DNA from: a bacterium
Lineage (GTDB): Bacteria > JALSQH01
Direction: 5' to 3'
Assembly: GCA_026985515.1 (NCBI GenBank)
Contig: JALSQH010000021.1
Location: 1 to 5,132, forward strand
DNA length: 5,132 bases
The first letter of the stretch is position 1. Every line of letters begins with the position of its first letter. Positions 1-5,132 of the stretch are shown here, piece after piece. The position numbers and the translations under genes were made by a program. The notes beneath the pieces are model-generated. The model saw only the letters and a list, made by a program, of their open reading frames with translations. It ran no database searches and was not told the origin of the DNA.

Positions 1-239
1 GCCCATATTGCTGAGAGGAAAACAAGTATGATGCTACCTGTAATTGAATTTAATATTCCGCCTCCCTTTACTCCGGGAGGTGCAGGAATGTGGGTGAGTA
101 TGGATAGATTGAATGCCTTTATTCCTTTTTCAATTATCTGAATGAGAATAAAAAACAGTGGCACCAGTGATAACACAACTGTAATTACTACAAGAAGAGT
201 AAAAAATTTCTCTTTCAAAATCCTTTTTCTTTCGCTCAT
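1..239 (-). CDS. pstA: PstA, phosphate ABC transporter permease (N-terminal part, cut by window edge)
   Basis: PstA is the second inner-membrane permease subunit of the high-affinity phosphate ABC transporter; it pairs with PstC to form the channel driven by the ATPase PstB. Only 79 full codons are present, and the rest lies beyond position 1. The visible protein starts MSERKRILKEKFFTLL, has a basic cytoplasmic tail, then a first membrane segment at about residues 13-36, then a loop with PAPPGVKGGGILNSITGS (residues 52-69). That proline/glycine stretch followed by GGI-N-I-G is typical of PstA just before its second membrane helix, which begins at about residue 69. The ATG overlaps the pstC stop by four bases (ATGA, 236-239). 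The Shine-Dalgarno before it is weak, so translation is probably coupled to pstC. The identification rests on the N-terminus plus gene order; the conserved EAA loop is not in the window. Confidence 0.9.
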   Translation of the reverse strand, partial: MSERKRILKEKFFTLLVVITVVLSLVPLFFILIQIIEKGIKAFNLSILTHIPAPPGVKGGGILNSITGSIILVFLSAIW

Positions 240-1120
240 TTCCAGGCACTCGTTTTTTCAATTATTAATTGACCTATGAGATTAAAGATAAAGGTAAAAA
301 TAAAAAGCCATAGTCCGATCTGTATCAGGGCACTGAGATGAATATCTTTCGTTGCTTCGGTAAATTCGTTGGCAATAACAGATGCCATGGTGTTTCCAGG
401 GCTAAAAATTGATGTTGGAATCTGGTTTGAATTGCCTATGACCATTGTAACTGCCATTGTTTCACCAAATGCTCTTCCAAAGGCGAGCATTATTCCTGCA
501 ATAATACCAGATCTTGCATATGGAATAACGATTTTTTTTATGACCTCATATCTGGTTGCGCCCGTGGAGTAACCTGCTTCAATTAACTCGACCGGTACAA
601 GCCTTACAACCTCTCTTATCATTGAAGAGGAATATGGAATTATCATTATTGAGAGAAGAATAGATGCGGTCAATATTCCAGTACCGTAGGGAATAAGACC
701 AAATTTTATTTCCATTTTCTGGATTAGCGGTACAATAAAAAGTAGCCCCCAGAAACCAAAGATTACAGAGGGTATGCCTGCGATGAGATCAGATAATGTG
801 TTTATGATTTCACTGATTTTACCGTTTGTATAAAAAACTCCTGAAAATATTCCCAAGGAGAGTGAAAAAGGAATAGATATGAGCAGTGAAAGAACAGATG
901 TTACCAGTGTCCCGATTAGAAATGGTAGCATTCCGAATTTATCTGTTGCTGGATCCCATATAGTTCCCGTAATGAAGTGGATACCAAATTTCTTCAGGGA
1001 GAGTAAACTTCCTTTGAAAAGGAAGAAAAAACTGATCATAACAATAGCTAAAAAGAAAATAGCCCCTCCCCATAATAGTATTTTAAAAAGGGTGTCACTA
1101 AAACTCCGCTCAGGTTTCAT
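236..1120 (-). CDS. pstC: PstC, phosphate ABC transporter permease
   Basis: This is an inner-membrane channel subunit of the Pst phosphate importer; it receives phosphate from PstS and works with PstA and the ATPase PstB. The 294-residue protein is slightly shorter than E. coli PstC (about 319). It has a first membrane helix at about residues 12-36, a periplasmic loop with GTIWDPATDKFGMLPFLIGTL (residues 52-72), and then the BPD_transp_1 core of several helices. The cytoplasmic EAA loop is clear at residues 181-200 (EAGYSTGATRYEVIKKIVIP), the coupling site for PstB. It is followed by the PstC signature GRAFGETMAV (215-224), whose Arg216 and Glu220 belong to the charged pair conserved in Pst permeases. 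The ATG (1118-1120) overlaps the pstS stop by four bases. A GGAG at about 1134-1137 lies some 13 bases upstream, further than usual, so coupling to pstS translation is likely. It has no frameshift or missing motif. Confidence 0.97.
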   Translation of the reverse strand: MKPERSFSDTLFKILLWGGAIFFLAIVMISFFFLFKGSLLSLKKFGIHFITGTIWDPATDKFGMLPFLIGTLVTSVLSLLISIPFSLSLGIFSGVFYTNGKISEIINTLSDLIAGIPSVIFGFWGLLFIVPLIQKMEIKFGLIPYGTGILTASILLSIMIIPYSSSMIREVVRLVPVELIEAGYSTGATRYEVIKKIVIPYARSGIIAGIMLAFGRAFGETMAVTMVIGNSNQIPTSIFSPGNTMASVIANEFTEATKDIHLSALIQIGLWLFIFTFIFNLIGQLIIEKTSAWK

Positions 1121-2148
1121 TTCAGTATCTTCACTCCTTTAAATGTTAAGCTCCTGATCAGTTTCTCAGCTTTTAATTTTGCTGATGGTGAAAGGGGGGC
1201 ATAGTGAAGAGGAGTTGCATATTTTTGCCCTTCATGAATTGTAAACCAGAGAAGTTTAACAAGTGATTGTGCTTTTTCCTTTGTTTTAATATTTGTTGAT
1301 AAATCCCTGTAAACCAGTAGCCATGTAAAGCCTGAAATGGGATAGCCATCAGGGGCATCTGTGTTTGTGAGCGAAACTCTCATATCATCCGGGAGAGGAA
1401 CATTTGATGCCATGGTAACACTTTTAATGGACGGTTTTATGAAATTACCATGTTTGTTCTGGATCAGTGCCGCAGGCATGTGGTTCTGGATGGCATATAT
1501 TAATTCAACATACCCAATTGATCCCGGAATCTGTCTGATCAAACCAGCGACCCCAGGATTTCCTTTTGCACCTATTCCGGTGGGCCAGTTAAGTGATTTT
1601 CCTCTTCCCACCTTTTTTGCCCATTCTTTGCTTATTTTTGTGAGGTAATCTGAAAATATGAATGTTGTACCGCTACCATCTGATCTGTGTACAACAACGA
1701 TTTTCATAGGAGGAAGGTTAACATCTGGATTTATCTTTTTTATGCGTGTATCATTCCACTTTGTTATTTTCCCAAGAAAAATTCCAGCGATGACCTCAGG
1801 TGTAAGTTTGATCTGGGGATTGCCTGGCAGGTTATAGGTAAGTACTACTGCACCGGCACATGTTGGAATGTGAACTACTGGTGATTCGAATTTCTTTAGT
1901 TCTTCATTGCTCAGAAAAGCATCAGATGCACCAAAGTCAACTGTTTTAGCTCTCAGTTGTCTGATCCCACCCCCAGAACCTATTGCCTGATAATTTACCC
2001 TTATTCCTGTTTGTCTGTAAAATTCATAGAACACTTTTGAGTAAAAGGGGTAGGGGAAAGTTGCTCCTGCACCTGTTAGTTCACCCGCATTAAGATTGTA
2101 ACCTGTGAAAATTAAAAGAAGCGTTAGAATTAAAGATATTTTTTTCAT
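1117..2148 (-). CDS. pstS: PstS, periplasmic phosphate-binding protein
   Basis: PstS binds phosphate in the periplasm and delivers it to PstC/PstA. From the ATG at 2146-2148 it is 343 residues, close to E. coli PstS. Residues 1-21 form a Sec signal peptide (MKKISLILTLLLIFTGYNLNA) with likely cleavage after Ala21. There is no lipobox Cys, so the protein is soluble and periplasmic. From recalled E. coli PstS, the phosphate ligands appear at a constant offset of 20 from mature numbering: Thr30 and Phe31 (GAGATF), Ser58 (GSGGG), Asp76 (DFGASD), and Arg155, Asp157, Ser159, Gly160, Thr161 (HRSDGSGTT). The WPTGIGAKGN stretch (188-197) and PGSIGYVE (208-215) are also typical. An in-frame ATG 14 codons upstream exists, but it would bury the signal peptide and lie inside the porin gene; the strong GGAGGAG six bases before this ATG decides the start. 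The gene lies 19 bp after the porin and overlaps pstC by four bases. Confidence 0.97.
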   Translation of the reverse strand: MKKISLILTLLLIFTGYNLNAGELTGAGATFPYPFYSKVFYEFYRQTGIRVNYQAIGSGGGIRQLRAKTVDFGASDAFLSNEELKKFESPVVHIPTCAGAVVLTYNLPGNPQIKLTPEVIAGIFLGKITKWNDTRIKKINPDVNLPPMKIVVVHRSDGSGTTFIFSDYLTKISKEWAKKVGRGKSLNWPTGIGAKGNPGVAGLIRQIPGSIGYVELIYAIQNHMPAALIQNKHGNFIKPSIKSVTMASNVPLPDDMRVSLTNTDAPDGYPISGFTWLLVYRDLSTNIKTKEKAQSLVKLLWFTIHEGQKYATPLHYAPLSPSAKLKAEKLIRSLTFKGVKILK

Positions 2149-2154
2149 TGTTTT

Positions 2155-2161
2155 CTCCTCC
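2155..2161 (-). promoter_or_regulatory. Ribosome binding site of pstS (decides the start)
   Basis: GGAGGAG on the minus strand lies six bases upstream of the ATG at 2146-2148, near-ideal spacing. It sits in the 19-bp gap between the porin stop (2168-2170) and pstS. It fixes the pstS start at MKKIS and argues against the longer in-frame start at 2190. Confidence 0.9.
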
Positions 2162-2167
2162 TTTTTG

Positions 2168-3295
2168 TTAAATTTTCCATACAAGATCAACCTGAATCAG
2201 ATTCTGGTAGGAAGGTGTTTCAATGGGTCTCATCAAGTAATAATCAATTCCCAGGAGCAGACCTCTGATAAGCATAATTTTCCCTTCCGCCTCATAACCT
2301 TTAACTCCAGTTTTTCCACCGTAAGCATCTGAGTCAGGGAAAATGTCAAGCCATGCATCCTTTTCAAGATACCTGTACATGATTTTGAACTGCCATTTGC
2401 CTCCTCTTTTCAGTTTTTCATATCCCATTTTGAATCCTGCGAGATAGCCTGTGGAATTTTGAGAAACAGCCAGATTTCTCACATATGTGCCAAAAAGAGC
2501 AATGCAGGGGGTTGCCGAAATCAGGTTTTTCATTTTTAATTGCATATTTGCTTCAATGGTATTGTAGTCGTAGAGCAGTTTCTTATCGGGTGTATATGAA
2601 TTTGTCTCCGAAGTAAACTGAAGAGAGTATCCCTTTACGGAATGAGAGTCAAAGTATGAAATTCCTGTGGCAAGTGAGAATCCTCCAGTGGTTACCTTCC
2701 CACCCAATTGGATATAGGTAATATTCGAATCAGCACCATTTTTCCTTTCCTCGATGATCCAGAATCCCGCGTTGGTGAAAAGTGAGGCTTGTTTCAAGGA
2801 ATATTCTCCCCTCAGCCCTGCTCCTTCAGGTGTTAAATCGGAATCCCATATGAGATCAGAGGTTGTCCATATTGCCTTTTTGATACCTTCATATTTACCT
2901 GCCCATAAATTGATGTAGGGGATCCCTCTGTATTCTGCATAGGCATAATTGATTTTTATATCTTTCATACTGAAGGAATTGGTAAGAGTGACATTGGTTG
3001 ATCTGGGGTCCCCATTTCCCGAAGCGATTCCAGCACCAATTATAAAATTTTTGATTTTGTAAGTTTTAAACCCAAGTCTGAATCTTATTCTTTCCCTTTC
3101 TCTGCTTTTTTTGTTTTTCTTTTTCTCCCACTGATAGCGTATCCTGAGATCTCCTTTGATTTTAAAAATTTTGCTGATATTTTTTCCTTTTGTTTCTCTG
3201 CTTGAAGCGTCTGGATAAGTATTGCTCGCTTGAAGGTTAACATTGAAGATAAACAGTGCCATAATCACCAGCCATTTTGTACTTTTCAGTTTCAT
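2168..3295 (-). CDS. Putative outer-membrane porin (Porin_5-like), first gene of the pst operon
   Basis: This is a predicted beta-barrel channel of the outer membrane, 375 residues. Residues 1-23 look like a Sec signal peptide (basic MKLKSTK, hydrophobic core, LQA before the likely cut). The mature part has alternating hydrophobic/polar strands rich in Tyr, Gly and aromatics. Family-type stretches are KIKGDLRIRYQW (45-56), RERIRFRLGFKT (67-78), ASGNGDPRSTN (91-101), KDIKINYAYAEY (111-122) and DLIWDSDLTPEGAGLRGEY (147-165). These match what I know of the 'putative porin' family Porin_5, recalled and not searched. It ends VDLVWKI, so the last residue is Ile rather than the usual Phe or Trp. There is one Cys (264). 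A GGAGG lies five bases before the ATG. Its place behind a Pho-box-like operator and 19 bp before pstS suggests a phosphate-starvation porin, playing the part of PhoE or OprP without evident resemblance to them. Substrate specificity is inference from context only. Confidence 0.83.
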   Translation of the reverse strand: MKLKSTKWLVIMALFIFNVNLQASNTYPDASSRETKGKNISKIFKIKGDLRIRYQWEKKKNKKSRERERIRFRLGFKTYKIKNFIIGAGIASGNGDPRSTNVTLTNSFSMKDIKINYAYAEYRGIPYINLWAGKYEGIKKAIWTTSDLIWDSDLTPEGAGLRGEYSLKQASLFTNAGFWIIEERKNGADSNITYIQLGGKVTTGGFSLATGISYFDSHSVKGYSLQFTSETNSYTPDKKLLYDYNTIEANMQLKMKNLISATPCIALFGTYVRNLAVSQNSTGYLAGFKMGYEKLKRGGKWQFKIMYRYLEKDAWLDIFPDSDAYGGKTGVKGYEAEGKIMLIRGLLLGIDYYLMRPIETPSYQNLIQVDLVWKI

Positions 3296-3300
3296 TTTTT

Positions 3301-3305
3301 CCTCC
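3301..3305 (-). promoter_or_regulatory. Ribosome binding site of the porin gene
   Basis: GGAGG flanked by A-runs on the minus strand, five bases upstream of the ATG at 3293-3295. It supports that start, which is also the one giving a clean signal peptide. Confidence 0.85.
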
Positions 3306-3324
3306 TTTTTTGATTTTCACCTTT

Positions 3325-3335
3325 ACTTTAAGATA
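3325..3335 (-). promoter_or_regulatory. Candidate -10 region of the porin-pst promoter
   Basis: Downstream of the direct repeats the minus strand reads TATCTTAAAGT. Two overlapping -10-like hexamers are possible: TATCTT (3330-3335), 4 bp after the last repeat, and TAAAGT (3325-3330), 9 bp after it. The second spacing is closer to that of PhoB/PhoP-activated promoters, where the repeats stand in for a -35 element. Neither is a strong match and I see no convincing -35. The start site cannot be fixed from sequence alone. Confidence 0.4.
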
Positions 3336-3339
3336 GAAA

Positions 3340-3378
3340 TGTTAAATAAAAATAAATTTTTTGTTAAATTTTTGTTAA
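3340..3378 (-). promoter_or_regulatory. Pho-box-like operator: TTAACA direct repeats with 11-bp period
   Basis: On the minus strand the gap reads TTAACA (3373-3378), N5, TTAACA (3362-3367), N5, TTTATT (3351-3356), N5, TTAACA (3340-3345). Three perfect hexamers and one degenerate one therefore fall on the same 11-bp phase, one helical turn. PhoB of E. coli binds 7-bp direct repeats spaced by 4 bp, and PhoP of Bacillus binds TTAACA-like hexamers spaced by about 5 bp; both give an 11-bp period. The site lies 45-83 bp upstream of the porin ATG, in the only sizeable gap of the window and directly ahead of phosphate-uptake genes. Likely role: activation of porin-pstSCA by the regulator paired with the neighbouring kinase. 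The caveat is that the gap is very AT-rich, so weak matches come cheaply; exact phasing is the main argument. Confidence 0.75.
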
Positions 3379-3396
3379 GAAGAAAAACAAAGGGTT

Positions 3397-5132
3397 TCAA
3401 TTAGTTGGATTGCGAGGAAGGGTGATTGTGAAGGTTGTTCCTTTTCCAGGTTTCGATTTTACATCAATTTTTCCATCGTAGAGAAGAACAATATGTTTTA
3501 CAATTGATAATCCAAGCCCCGTTCCCCCCAGTTTTCTGGAATGAGATTTATTGACCACATAGAATCTCTCAAAAAGTCTCGGAATATGTTTTTCCTCAAT
3601 CCCTATTCCGGTGTCTGATACTTCGATATGGATATCATCGAGACCTGTGATTTTTATGGTAACACCTCCCTTCTCCGTATATTTAATTGCATTATCAATT
3701 AAGTTTATAAGCAGCTGTTCAAGTTTGAAAGGGTCTCCGGCAAAGTATGTATTTCCTTCTGCTTTTAATTTTATGTATAACCCCTTTTCCTCCGCTTTGG
3801 GTTTAAAAATTTTTATAACATGGTCAGCCAGTTCTTTGAGATCTATTTTTTCTTTATCTTCACTGAGCATTTCTTTCTCCTCTTCAAGCTGGGAAAGAAC
3901 AAGAAGATCTTTAACGATATTAATTAACCTGTCTGTATGTTTCATAACAATATGAATGTAAGTCTTGATATCCTCGTCTTTCACTTCTTCTTCAACAGTT
4001 TCCAGATAGCCTTTGATGGCTGTCAGTGGAGTTCTTAATTCGTGTGAAACATTGGTTACAAAGTCACGTTTAATAATTTCAAGACGTTTGAGATCAGTAA
4101 TGTCATGAAAAACAAAAATTGTTTCCTTTTTCATGGGCAGAAAAGAGGAACTGACAATGTAATATCTGTCTTTTATTTTCAATTCTTCGACATTTTCAGA
4201 TTGATTGGTGAGTGTCTTTTCAATAAATTCCTTTAGCTTTGGATCTTTTAATACCTCCCACCAGTATTTTTCCTCAGGAGTGGAGTCAATGATACCAGTA
4301 AGACTTTTATTTGTAAGAGTTATTTTTCCTTCATCATTTATGACGCAGAGTCCTTCTTTTAGAGAAGAAATTATGTTTCTCAACTCTTCCTCCCTCTGTT
4401 GAAGCGATTCAAATAATTCTTCCAGTTTATCAGCCATGATATTAAAGCTTCGTGATAACTCGCCGATTTCATCCTCAGATTTAACTGAAACTCTAATGTT
4501 AAAATTCCCGCTGGCAATTTTTGTCGAGGCATCAAGTACTTCTTTAATAGGCGAAGAAATACTTTGAGAAAAAAAATACGCTCCGAGAAGTGAAAGAGTA
4601 AGTAAAGCTATTGTTATTACAAGCATTTTCTTTAAAAGGTTCTGGAGAAGTGTGTCTACATCACTTACAAATATGCTTGTTCTGATAATGGCAGCTATTC
4701 TGTGGTTGAGGTACACTGGCATTGCAACATAGATCATTCTCCTCTGCATCGTTGCACTAAATCTTACAGACCTTCCTTCACCCTTACTGAGAGCTCCGAC
4801 TATTTCTGGTCTATTTCTGTGGTTTTCCATAATAAGTGGATTTTTATATGTATCTCCCAGGACCTTTCCATCTGGTCCGATCACTGTTATTCTAATTTTT
4901 AGCTTTCTTCCCATAAGTTTTGCCCAGGTATCGATGATTGCCGGATTTTTCTTACTCAGAAGGCTCTTGAGCTCTGATTGCAGAGATATGTTAATTTTCT
5001 TGAGATTGTTCTGGAGAGTTTCTATGTAATGATTTTTTATGGTTGTGAAAGAAAAGACGAAGATGAGAAAAGCGAGTCCCACGATAATAAGACTGAAACT
5101 TGAAAAGATACGGAAGAAAATGGATTTCTTCA
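3397..5132 (-). CDS. phoR: PhoR-type sensor histidine kinase (start codon just off the window edge)
   Basis: Membrane sensor kinase expected to autophosphorylate on His and pass phosphate to a PhoB/PhoP regulator. Numbered from a Met whose codon is cut by the edge (xTG, bases 2-3 at 5132-5131), it is 578 residues. It starts (M)KKSIFFRIFSSFSL, with TM1 about 9-33, an extracytoplasmic sensor about 35-168 containing GPDGKVLGD (86-94) and MENHRNRPEI (102-111), both typical of PhoR/PnpS-class kinases, and TM2 about 169-188. HAMP follows about 189-242, then PAS about 247-349 and HisKA with SHELRTP (phosphoacceptor His364, Thr368 of the HExxT phosphatase motif). The ATPase domain has N-box Asn481, G1 DTGIGI (507-512), F-box FERFY and G2 GGTGLGL (536-542). 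An internal GTG at 5080-5082 would start inside TM1 and drop the basic N-terminus, so it is unlikely. All catalytic motifs are intact. The phoR name rests on architecture plus the pst neighbours; WalK or ResE-like roles are less likely here. Confidence 0.9.
   Translation of the reverse strand, partial: KKSIFFRIFSSFSLIIVGLAFLIFVFSFTTIKNHYIETLQNNLKKINISLQSELKSLLSKKNPAIIDTWAKLMGRKLKIRITVIGPDGKVLGDTYKNPLIMENHRNRPEIVGALSKGEGRSVRFSATMQRRMIYVAMPVYLNHRIAAIIRTSIFVSDVDTLLQNLLKKMLVITIALLTLSLLGAYFFSQSISSPIKEVLDASTKIASGNFNIRVSVKSEDEIGELSRSFNIMADKLEELFESLQQREEELRNIISSLKEGLCVINDEGKITLTNKSLTGIIDSTPEEKYWWEVLKDPKLKEFIEKTLTNQSENVEELKIKDRYYIVSSSFLPMKKETIFVFHDITDLKRLEIIKRDFVTNVSHELRTPLTAIKGYLETVEEEVKDEDIKTYIHIVMKHTDRLINIVKDLLVLSQLEEEKEMLSEDKEKIDLKELADHVIKIFKPKAEEKGLYIKLKAEGNTYFAGDPFKLEQLLINLIDNAIKYTEKGGVTIKITGLDDIHIEVSDTGIGIEEKHIPRLFERFYVVNKSHSRKLGGTGLGLSIVKHIVLLYDGKIDVKSKPGKGTTFTITLPRNPTN

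Follow-up and report, generated by a model that had tools for sequence, protein, structure and literature searches.

A Porin_5 porin gene between a Pho-box-like operator and pstS: a putative outer-membrane channel serving the Pst importer

To our knowledge, there are few bacteria for which the passage of inorganic phosphate across the outer membrane is understood. The window analyzed here, i.e., a stretch of 5,132 nucleotides that is an entire contig (C21), carries a porin gene directly upstream of genes of the phosphate importer Pst, and the question is whether this porin is the outer-membrane channel that serves this importer. Given the gene order, the operator-like repeats and the recurrence of the linkage across phyla, the locus is best read as encoding a putative outer-membrane channel that is under Pho control and serves Pst. 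With a probability that we estimate at about 0.7, the product of this gene is a Porin_5 outer-membrane porin with 16 strands, produced along with the Pst ABC importer in response to phosphate starvation. Under phosphate limitation, PhoB/PhoP in its phosphorylated form would bind the 11-bp repeats and drive porin-pstSCAB-phoU, the porin would let orthophosphate into the periplasm and PstS would capture it for import.

Organization of the locus and of its putative operator

All the genes of the window are encoded on the minus strand (Table 1), in the order phoR-like kinase, Porin_5 gene, pstS, pstC and pstA, with 101 bp between the kinase and porin genes and 19 bp between the porin gene and pstS. 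The ATG start codon of pstS (at 2148) is preceded by an AGGAGG motif, and pstC and pstS overlap by 4 bp. Since a 3′ part of pstA, followed by pstB and phoU, is found at one end of contig C74 from the same genome, the operon is very likely porin-pstSCAB-phoU. The kinase matches the NCBIfam models PnpS (366 bits) and PhoR (293 bits), in both cases below cut-off. In the profile search of the genome, this porin was the only Porin_5 gene found. In a genome from the same family (G001, about 80% complete), neither a TIGR00975 PstS nor the porin was found at the thresholds used.

Table 1. Features identified in the 5,132-nucleotide window.
Feature	Positions	Strand	Details
phoR-like sensor histidine kinase, truncated at its start by the contig end	3397..5130	-	Pfam HisKA, HATPase_c, HAMP
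Pho-box-like operator (predicted)	3335..3378	-	TTAACA at 3378-3373, 3367-3362 and 3345-3340; degenerate TTTATT at 3356; 11-bp phase
Porin_5 outer-membrane porin, 375 aa	2168..3295	-	PF16930, E=1.9e-29
Strand 1, residues 44-59	3119..3166	-	K45, K47, D49, R51 and R53 on putative lumen face
Strand 2, residues 65-78	3062..3103	-	R65, R67, R69, R71 and R73 alternating, putative lumen face
Long loop 3, residues about 135-156	2828..2893	-	LIWDSDLxPEG motif; fully conserved D151, almost fully conserved D153; may form the constriction
Long loop 7, residues about 311-330	2306..2365	-	DSDxxGGxT motif
pstS, phosphate-binding protein	1117..2148	-	TIGR00975, E=3e-108
pstC permease	236..1120	-	TIGR02138, E=2.8e-81
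pstA permease, 5′ part, cut by contig end	3..239	-	TIGR00974, E=3e-11

The initial annotation described the porin as lying between a Pho-box-like operator and pstS without any terminator before pstS, and this arrangement was found again, no terminator-like site being detected in positions 2050-3550. It also considered the porin as the first gene of the pst operon. This holds for the unit located behind the Pho box but not beyond it, since phoR lies ahead of the porin in the same orientation; both genes could also be co-transcribed.

PhoB/PhoP boxes display a tandem arrangement with a spacing of 11 bp, which the array of the window resembles. TTAACA occurs at offsets 0, 11 and 33 in the phoR-porin gap, and the exact in-phase pairs of this array were equalled in none of 2000 dinucleotide shuffles. 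By its sequence, i.e., hexamers in 11-bp phase upstream of the porin, the array is a predicted tandem PhoB/PhoP box.

Family assignment, predicted fold and conserved residues

As initially annotated, the gene is of the Porin_5 type: its product matches the profile of this porin family over both barrel halves, with 103.1 bits for a curated cut-off of 22 bits. No NCBIfam model matched the protein, so that the assignment would also be a gain for annotation. Pfam describes Porin_5 as putative porins and assigns no function to the family at large. The pst-linked members lie in its high-scoring part, whereas the ten lowest-scoring members inspected are all devoid of pst linkage.

The barrel that had been anticipated was predicted with confidence by AlphaFold2 from an alignment of 74 rows (16 strands, mean pLDDT of 90.6, pTM of 0.84). 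The protein comprises a likely signal peptide (residues about 1-23), about 20 residues that are modeled with low confidence and the barrel (residues 44-374). Porins fill the list of structural matches: the closest solved fold among the matches listed by VIA-align is OmpM1 from Veillonella parvula (PDB 8bym, 8bys and 8byt; Z=27), followed by OprO (21.9), OprP (21.8) and many other porins close behind at about 20, so that the match to OprP is not distinctive alone. OmpM1 is also the only solved chain retrieved by the family profile (E=4.4e-9), whereas a plain sequence search of solved structures with the window porin returned chance matches only.

OmpM1 carries an SLH stalk and acts both as a general, size-limited porin and as a tether (PMC10628300). 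One may ask whether the window porin, like OmpM, chiefly tethers or structures the outer membrane, in which case its linkage to phosphate genes would be incidental. The tethering porin is indeed the best fold and profile match, many relatives possess a long N-terminal extension before the barrel, and one of them (L093) apparently includes an SLH-like stretch. However, the window porin lacks both this extension (residues 1-43; positions 3167-3295) and the stalk: only the low-confidence residues separate its signal peptide from its barrel, Pfam reported no SLH domain, and a barrel that starts at residue 44 does not correspond to an SLH-plus-stalk architecture. Furthermore, the linkage to importer genes recurs in many phyla (see below). 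We consider a tethering role as very improbable.

Besides, the Porin_5-like protein encoded by L093:8012-9496 (+) begins with a sequence resembling an SLH repeat and may form a bridge to the tethering porins of the OmpM type.

The initial annotation saw in this porin an independent solution to phosphate passage. The PF07396 profile (Porin_O_P), to which OprP and OprO from Pseudomonas belong, matched neither the window porin at E up to 1 nor any protein of the whole genome. However, a profile-profile comparison (one hhalign comparison) related Porin_5 to Porin_O_P with a probability of 96% (16% identity over 250 columns, E=2.2e-9), and OprO and OprP come just behind OmpM1 structurally. Given this remote link, "independent solution" is too strong, and we prefer to speak of a separate, distantly related porin family serving the same task. 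In addition to the remote profile similarity and the structural match, the window porin shares with OprP/OprO a predicted 16-strand barrel, a context of phosphate starvation and, probably, an arginine-rich lumen; it differs from them by the lack of PF07396 match, a low identity (12-14%), the location of its arginine line on strands 1-2 and the position of its gene next to pstS.

PhoE from Escherichia coli is a Pho-regulated outer-membrane porin with 16 strands. The window porin has the same number of predicted strands and is probably Pho-regulated too, but PhoE belongs to another Pfam family. OmpF/OmpC-type porins, which are related to PhoE, align with the window porin with Z about 20 and 9-12% identity; PhoE itself is not among the solved-structure matches listed, an absence that carries no weight.

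Highly conserved residues of the barrel are consistent with the passage of anions. R51 and R53 are present in 100% of the 74 aligned homologues and R67-R73 in 99-100%. The polar/non-polar alternation of each strand, rather than model coordinates, suggests that the residues of strands 1 and 2 listed in Table 1 face the lumen. This arginine line would probably draw anions through the pore, which acidic loops 3 and 7 would narrow on the opposite side; both loops carry conserved D-x-D motifs. Acidic loops facing arginines are also found in the design of general-diffusion porins. In OmpM1, the constriction is formed by loops 3 and 7 (PMC10628300). Of the arginines above, the profile alignment gives a counterpart in OmpM1 to the last two of strand 2 only.

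Since the arginines of strands 1-2 are also present in most unlinked Porin_5 members, they suggest anion handling rather than phosphate specificity, and the arginine line was rejected as a mark of pst-linked members. Total net charge does not separate the linkage groups either. These residues bear on another explanation, according to which a general-diffusion porin has been put under Pho control and merely raises permeability, with a weak anion preference at most and no real preference for phosphate. The family-wide occurrence of the arginines favors it, as do the general porin function of OmpM1, the nearest solved relative, and the lack of a second Porin_5 gene in the genome. However, the alternating arginines run along strand 2 instead of forming a single ring; the importers associated with the family, described below, also have to be considered.

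Linkage with pst genes across phyla

Using the window porin alone as a query, no relative was found in the genome contigs searched. They were detected only with an alignment of pst-linked relatives, and a profile built from nine relatives had matches in 47 of 386 genomes. In the less biased genome sample, 49 places were inspected, including the window: 25 are linked, with a same-strand pstS located at most 400 bp downstream, three more are near pst genes and 21 are not. A motif-based scan of named genomes yielded 442 relatives, the best 80 of which were kept. Among these 80, 54 are located directly upstream of pstS on the same strand (gap of 3-239 bp, median 76.5), five are near other pst genes, five are cut by contig ends and 16 are unlinked. 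As the motif was drawn from pst-linked members, this proportion and the fractions by phylum overstate the linkage in the whole family.

The pst-linked porins belong to about a dozen phyla, and their common gene order is phoB-phoR-porin-pstSCAB-phoU. Among the best 80 of the 442 relatives, linked members per NCBI phylum amount to 21 of 26 in Planctomycetota, 9 of 11 in Omnitrophota, 4 of 7 in Thermodesulfobacteriota, 1 of 4 in Myxococcota and 1 of 3 in Acidobacteriota, with one or two linked cases each in CSSED10-310, Auribacterota, Zixibacteriota, Caldisericota, Krumholzibacteriota, Hydrogenedentes and Poribacteria. None of the 10 members from Pseudomonadota in this set is directly upstream of pstS, some being near other pst genes. 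The survey of pstS neighborhoods suggested in the initial annotation thus revealed a conserved linkage; neither this survey nor the profile search, two of the refuting checks named in that annotation, went against the function proposed there. A comparison with Porin_O_P shows a PstS-like gene at about 1.5 kb or less from about seven of its 30 best loci, mostly low-scoring ones; the proximity of a porin and pst genes is therefore not unique to Porin_5. In an otherwise standard porin-pst operon, a short histidine-kinase-like gene (L013:6818-7756 (-)) is inserted between pstS and pstC.

The upstream regions of the pst-linked porins, taken together, also display the 11-bp periodicity: six-base matches at this distance reach 20.7 per thousand in the 200-bp set and 18.0 per thousand in the 250-bp set, compared to about 8.5 per thousand for most other distances; lag 22 shows a second rise. 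Unlinked porins show a smaller rise at lag 11, to which ten low-scoring members contribute most and which may be noise; the pooled enrichment is weak among the higher-scoring unlinked porins, and small sets are noisy.

In the part of the open-access literature that was covered, we found no link between Porin_5 and phosphate. OprO/OprP-type porins have been inferred across lacustrine Planctomycetes (PMC6461901), so that some of these genes may already be annotated automatically as phosphate porins. With Porin_5, there is a concrete candidate, open to testing, in phyla represented mostly by metagenome-assembled genomes (Planctomycetota, Omnitrophota, Zixibacteria and others).

Porins associated with other importers

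The neighbors of several unlinked members, identified with NCBIfam and Pfam, revealed associations with other importers: (i) CysT-CysW-CysA followed by the porin (L012), for sulfate; (ii) ModA-ModB-ModC followed by the porin (L015), the porin followed by ModA and a ModB-like gene (L088), or the porin followed by a ModE-like gene and WtpA (L067), for molybdate/tungstate; and (iii) the porin followed by a PhoU_div (DUF47) gene and a permease gene (L224, L225, L226 and L228). In the latter group, L225 was confirmed for both the Pit-type PHO4 permease and DUF47, L228 for the permease and L224 for DUF47, the other assignments being based on the same leading sequence; a PHO4 gene is also found near the porin of L234. 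The ModB-ModC-porin arrangement recurs in L212, L213, L219, L220 and L222, from the phylum of G006, in which the genomes G429, G449, G423 and G418 also harbor a pst-linked porin. Likewise, G043 carries one copy associated with pst (L013) and another with cys (L012). Pairs of Porin_5 copies within one genome, one associated with pst and the other with mod, wtp or cys, were observed for L212/L230, L213/L235, L220/L233, L222/L236, L012/L013 and L062/L067.

This pairing of Porin_5 members with Pit, ModABC or WtpA, and CysTWA, together with the occurrence of one copy per importer in several genomes, goes beyond the initial annotation. In a tree of 150 porins, the partner labels are clustered, with four changes for mod and two for pit; since this tree includes many long branches and weak inner forks, these numbers are a guide only.

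As Pit is unrelated to Pst and has the same kind of porin neighbor, it strengthens the link to phosphate for part of the family, whereas the association with Mod and Cys widens the role of the family to oxyanions. The phosphate role initially put forward thus remains probable for the pst-linked branch but does not apply to the whole family, some members of which lie beside Mod/Wtp and Cys importers. The porins found beside these importers are probably the outer-membrane doorway for the corresponding charged nutrients, and Porin_5 is probably a family of oxyanion porins, with phosphate as the substrate of its pst-linked branch. A wider proposal is that Porin_5 is a general family of outer-membrane oxyanion channels, with copies repeatedly matched to Pst, Pit, Mod/Wtp or Cys and tuned by their constriction loops, so that many phyla would possess a set of doors for inorganic oxyanions that has not been recognized as such; we regard the arguments for and against it as evenly balanced. 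At positions 326, 328 and 329 of loop 7, nine mod- or cys-linked sequences deviate from the pst/pit pattern, but these nine are all related and cannot establish a specificity code. As pst-, mod- and cys-linked copies exist side by side, in some cases within a single genome, their channel selectivity could be compared in laboratory strains by loop swaps or mutation.

These partners also help to weigh the remaining alternatives. The importers associated with the family are those of inorganic phosphate, molybdate/tungstate or sulfate, and the presence of one copy per importer in some genomes would be needless for a general porin; together with the arrangement of the arginines along strand 2, this makes a general-diffusion porin under Pho control an unlikely explanation, albeit the most serious of the alternatives. 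The porin might also carry another substrate, such as a phosphate ester or another oxyanion, and share the pst operon only because the breakdown or competition of this substrate concerns phosphate. The pairing of family members with molybdate, tungstate and sulfate importers would fit such a role, but it is with Pst itself, usually together with PhoB/PhoR and PhoU, that the window porin and most linked relatives are paired, and we hold another substrate to be improbable. A putative phosphate channel serving Pst is the reading that we retain for the window porin.

Two further observations concern distant or unlinked members. On one contig from a viral collection (L181), which may be cellular DNA, the gene of a distant Porin_5 relative is adjacent to housekeeping-like genes. 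The unlinked Porin_5 genes of L159 and L163 adjoin ExbD/TonB-like genes, as judged from their leading sequence only.
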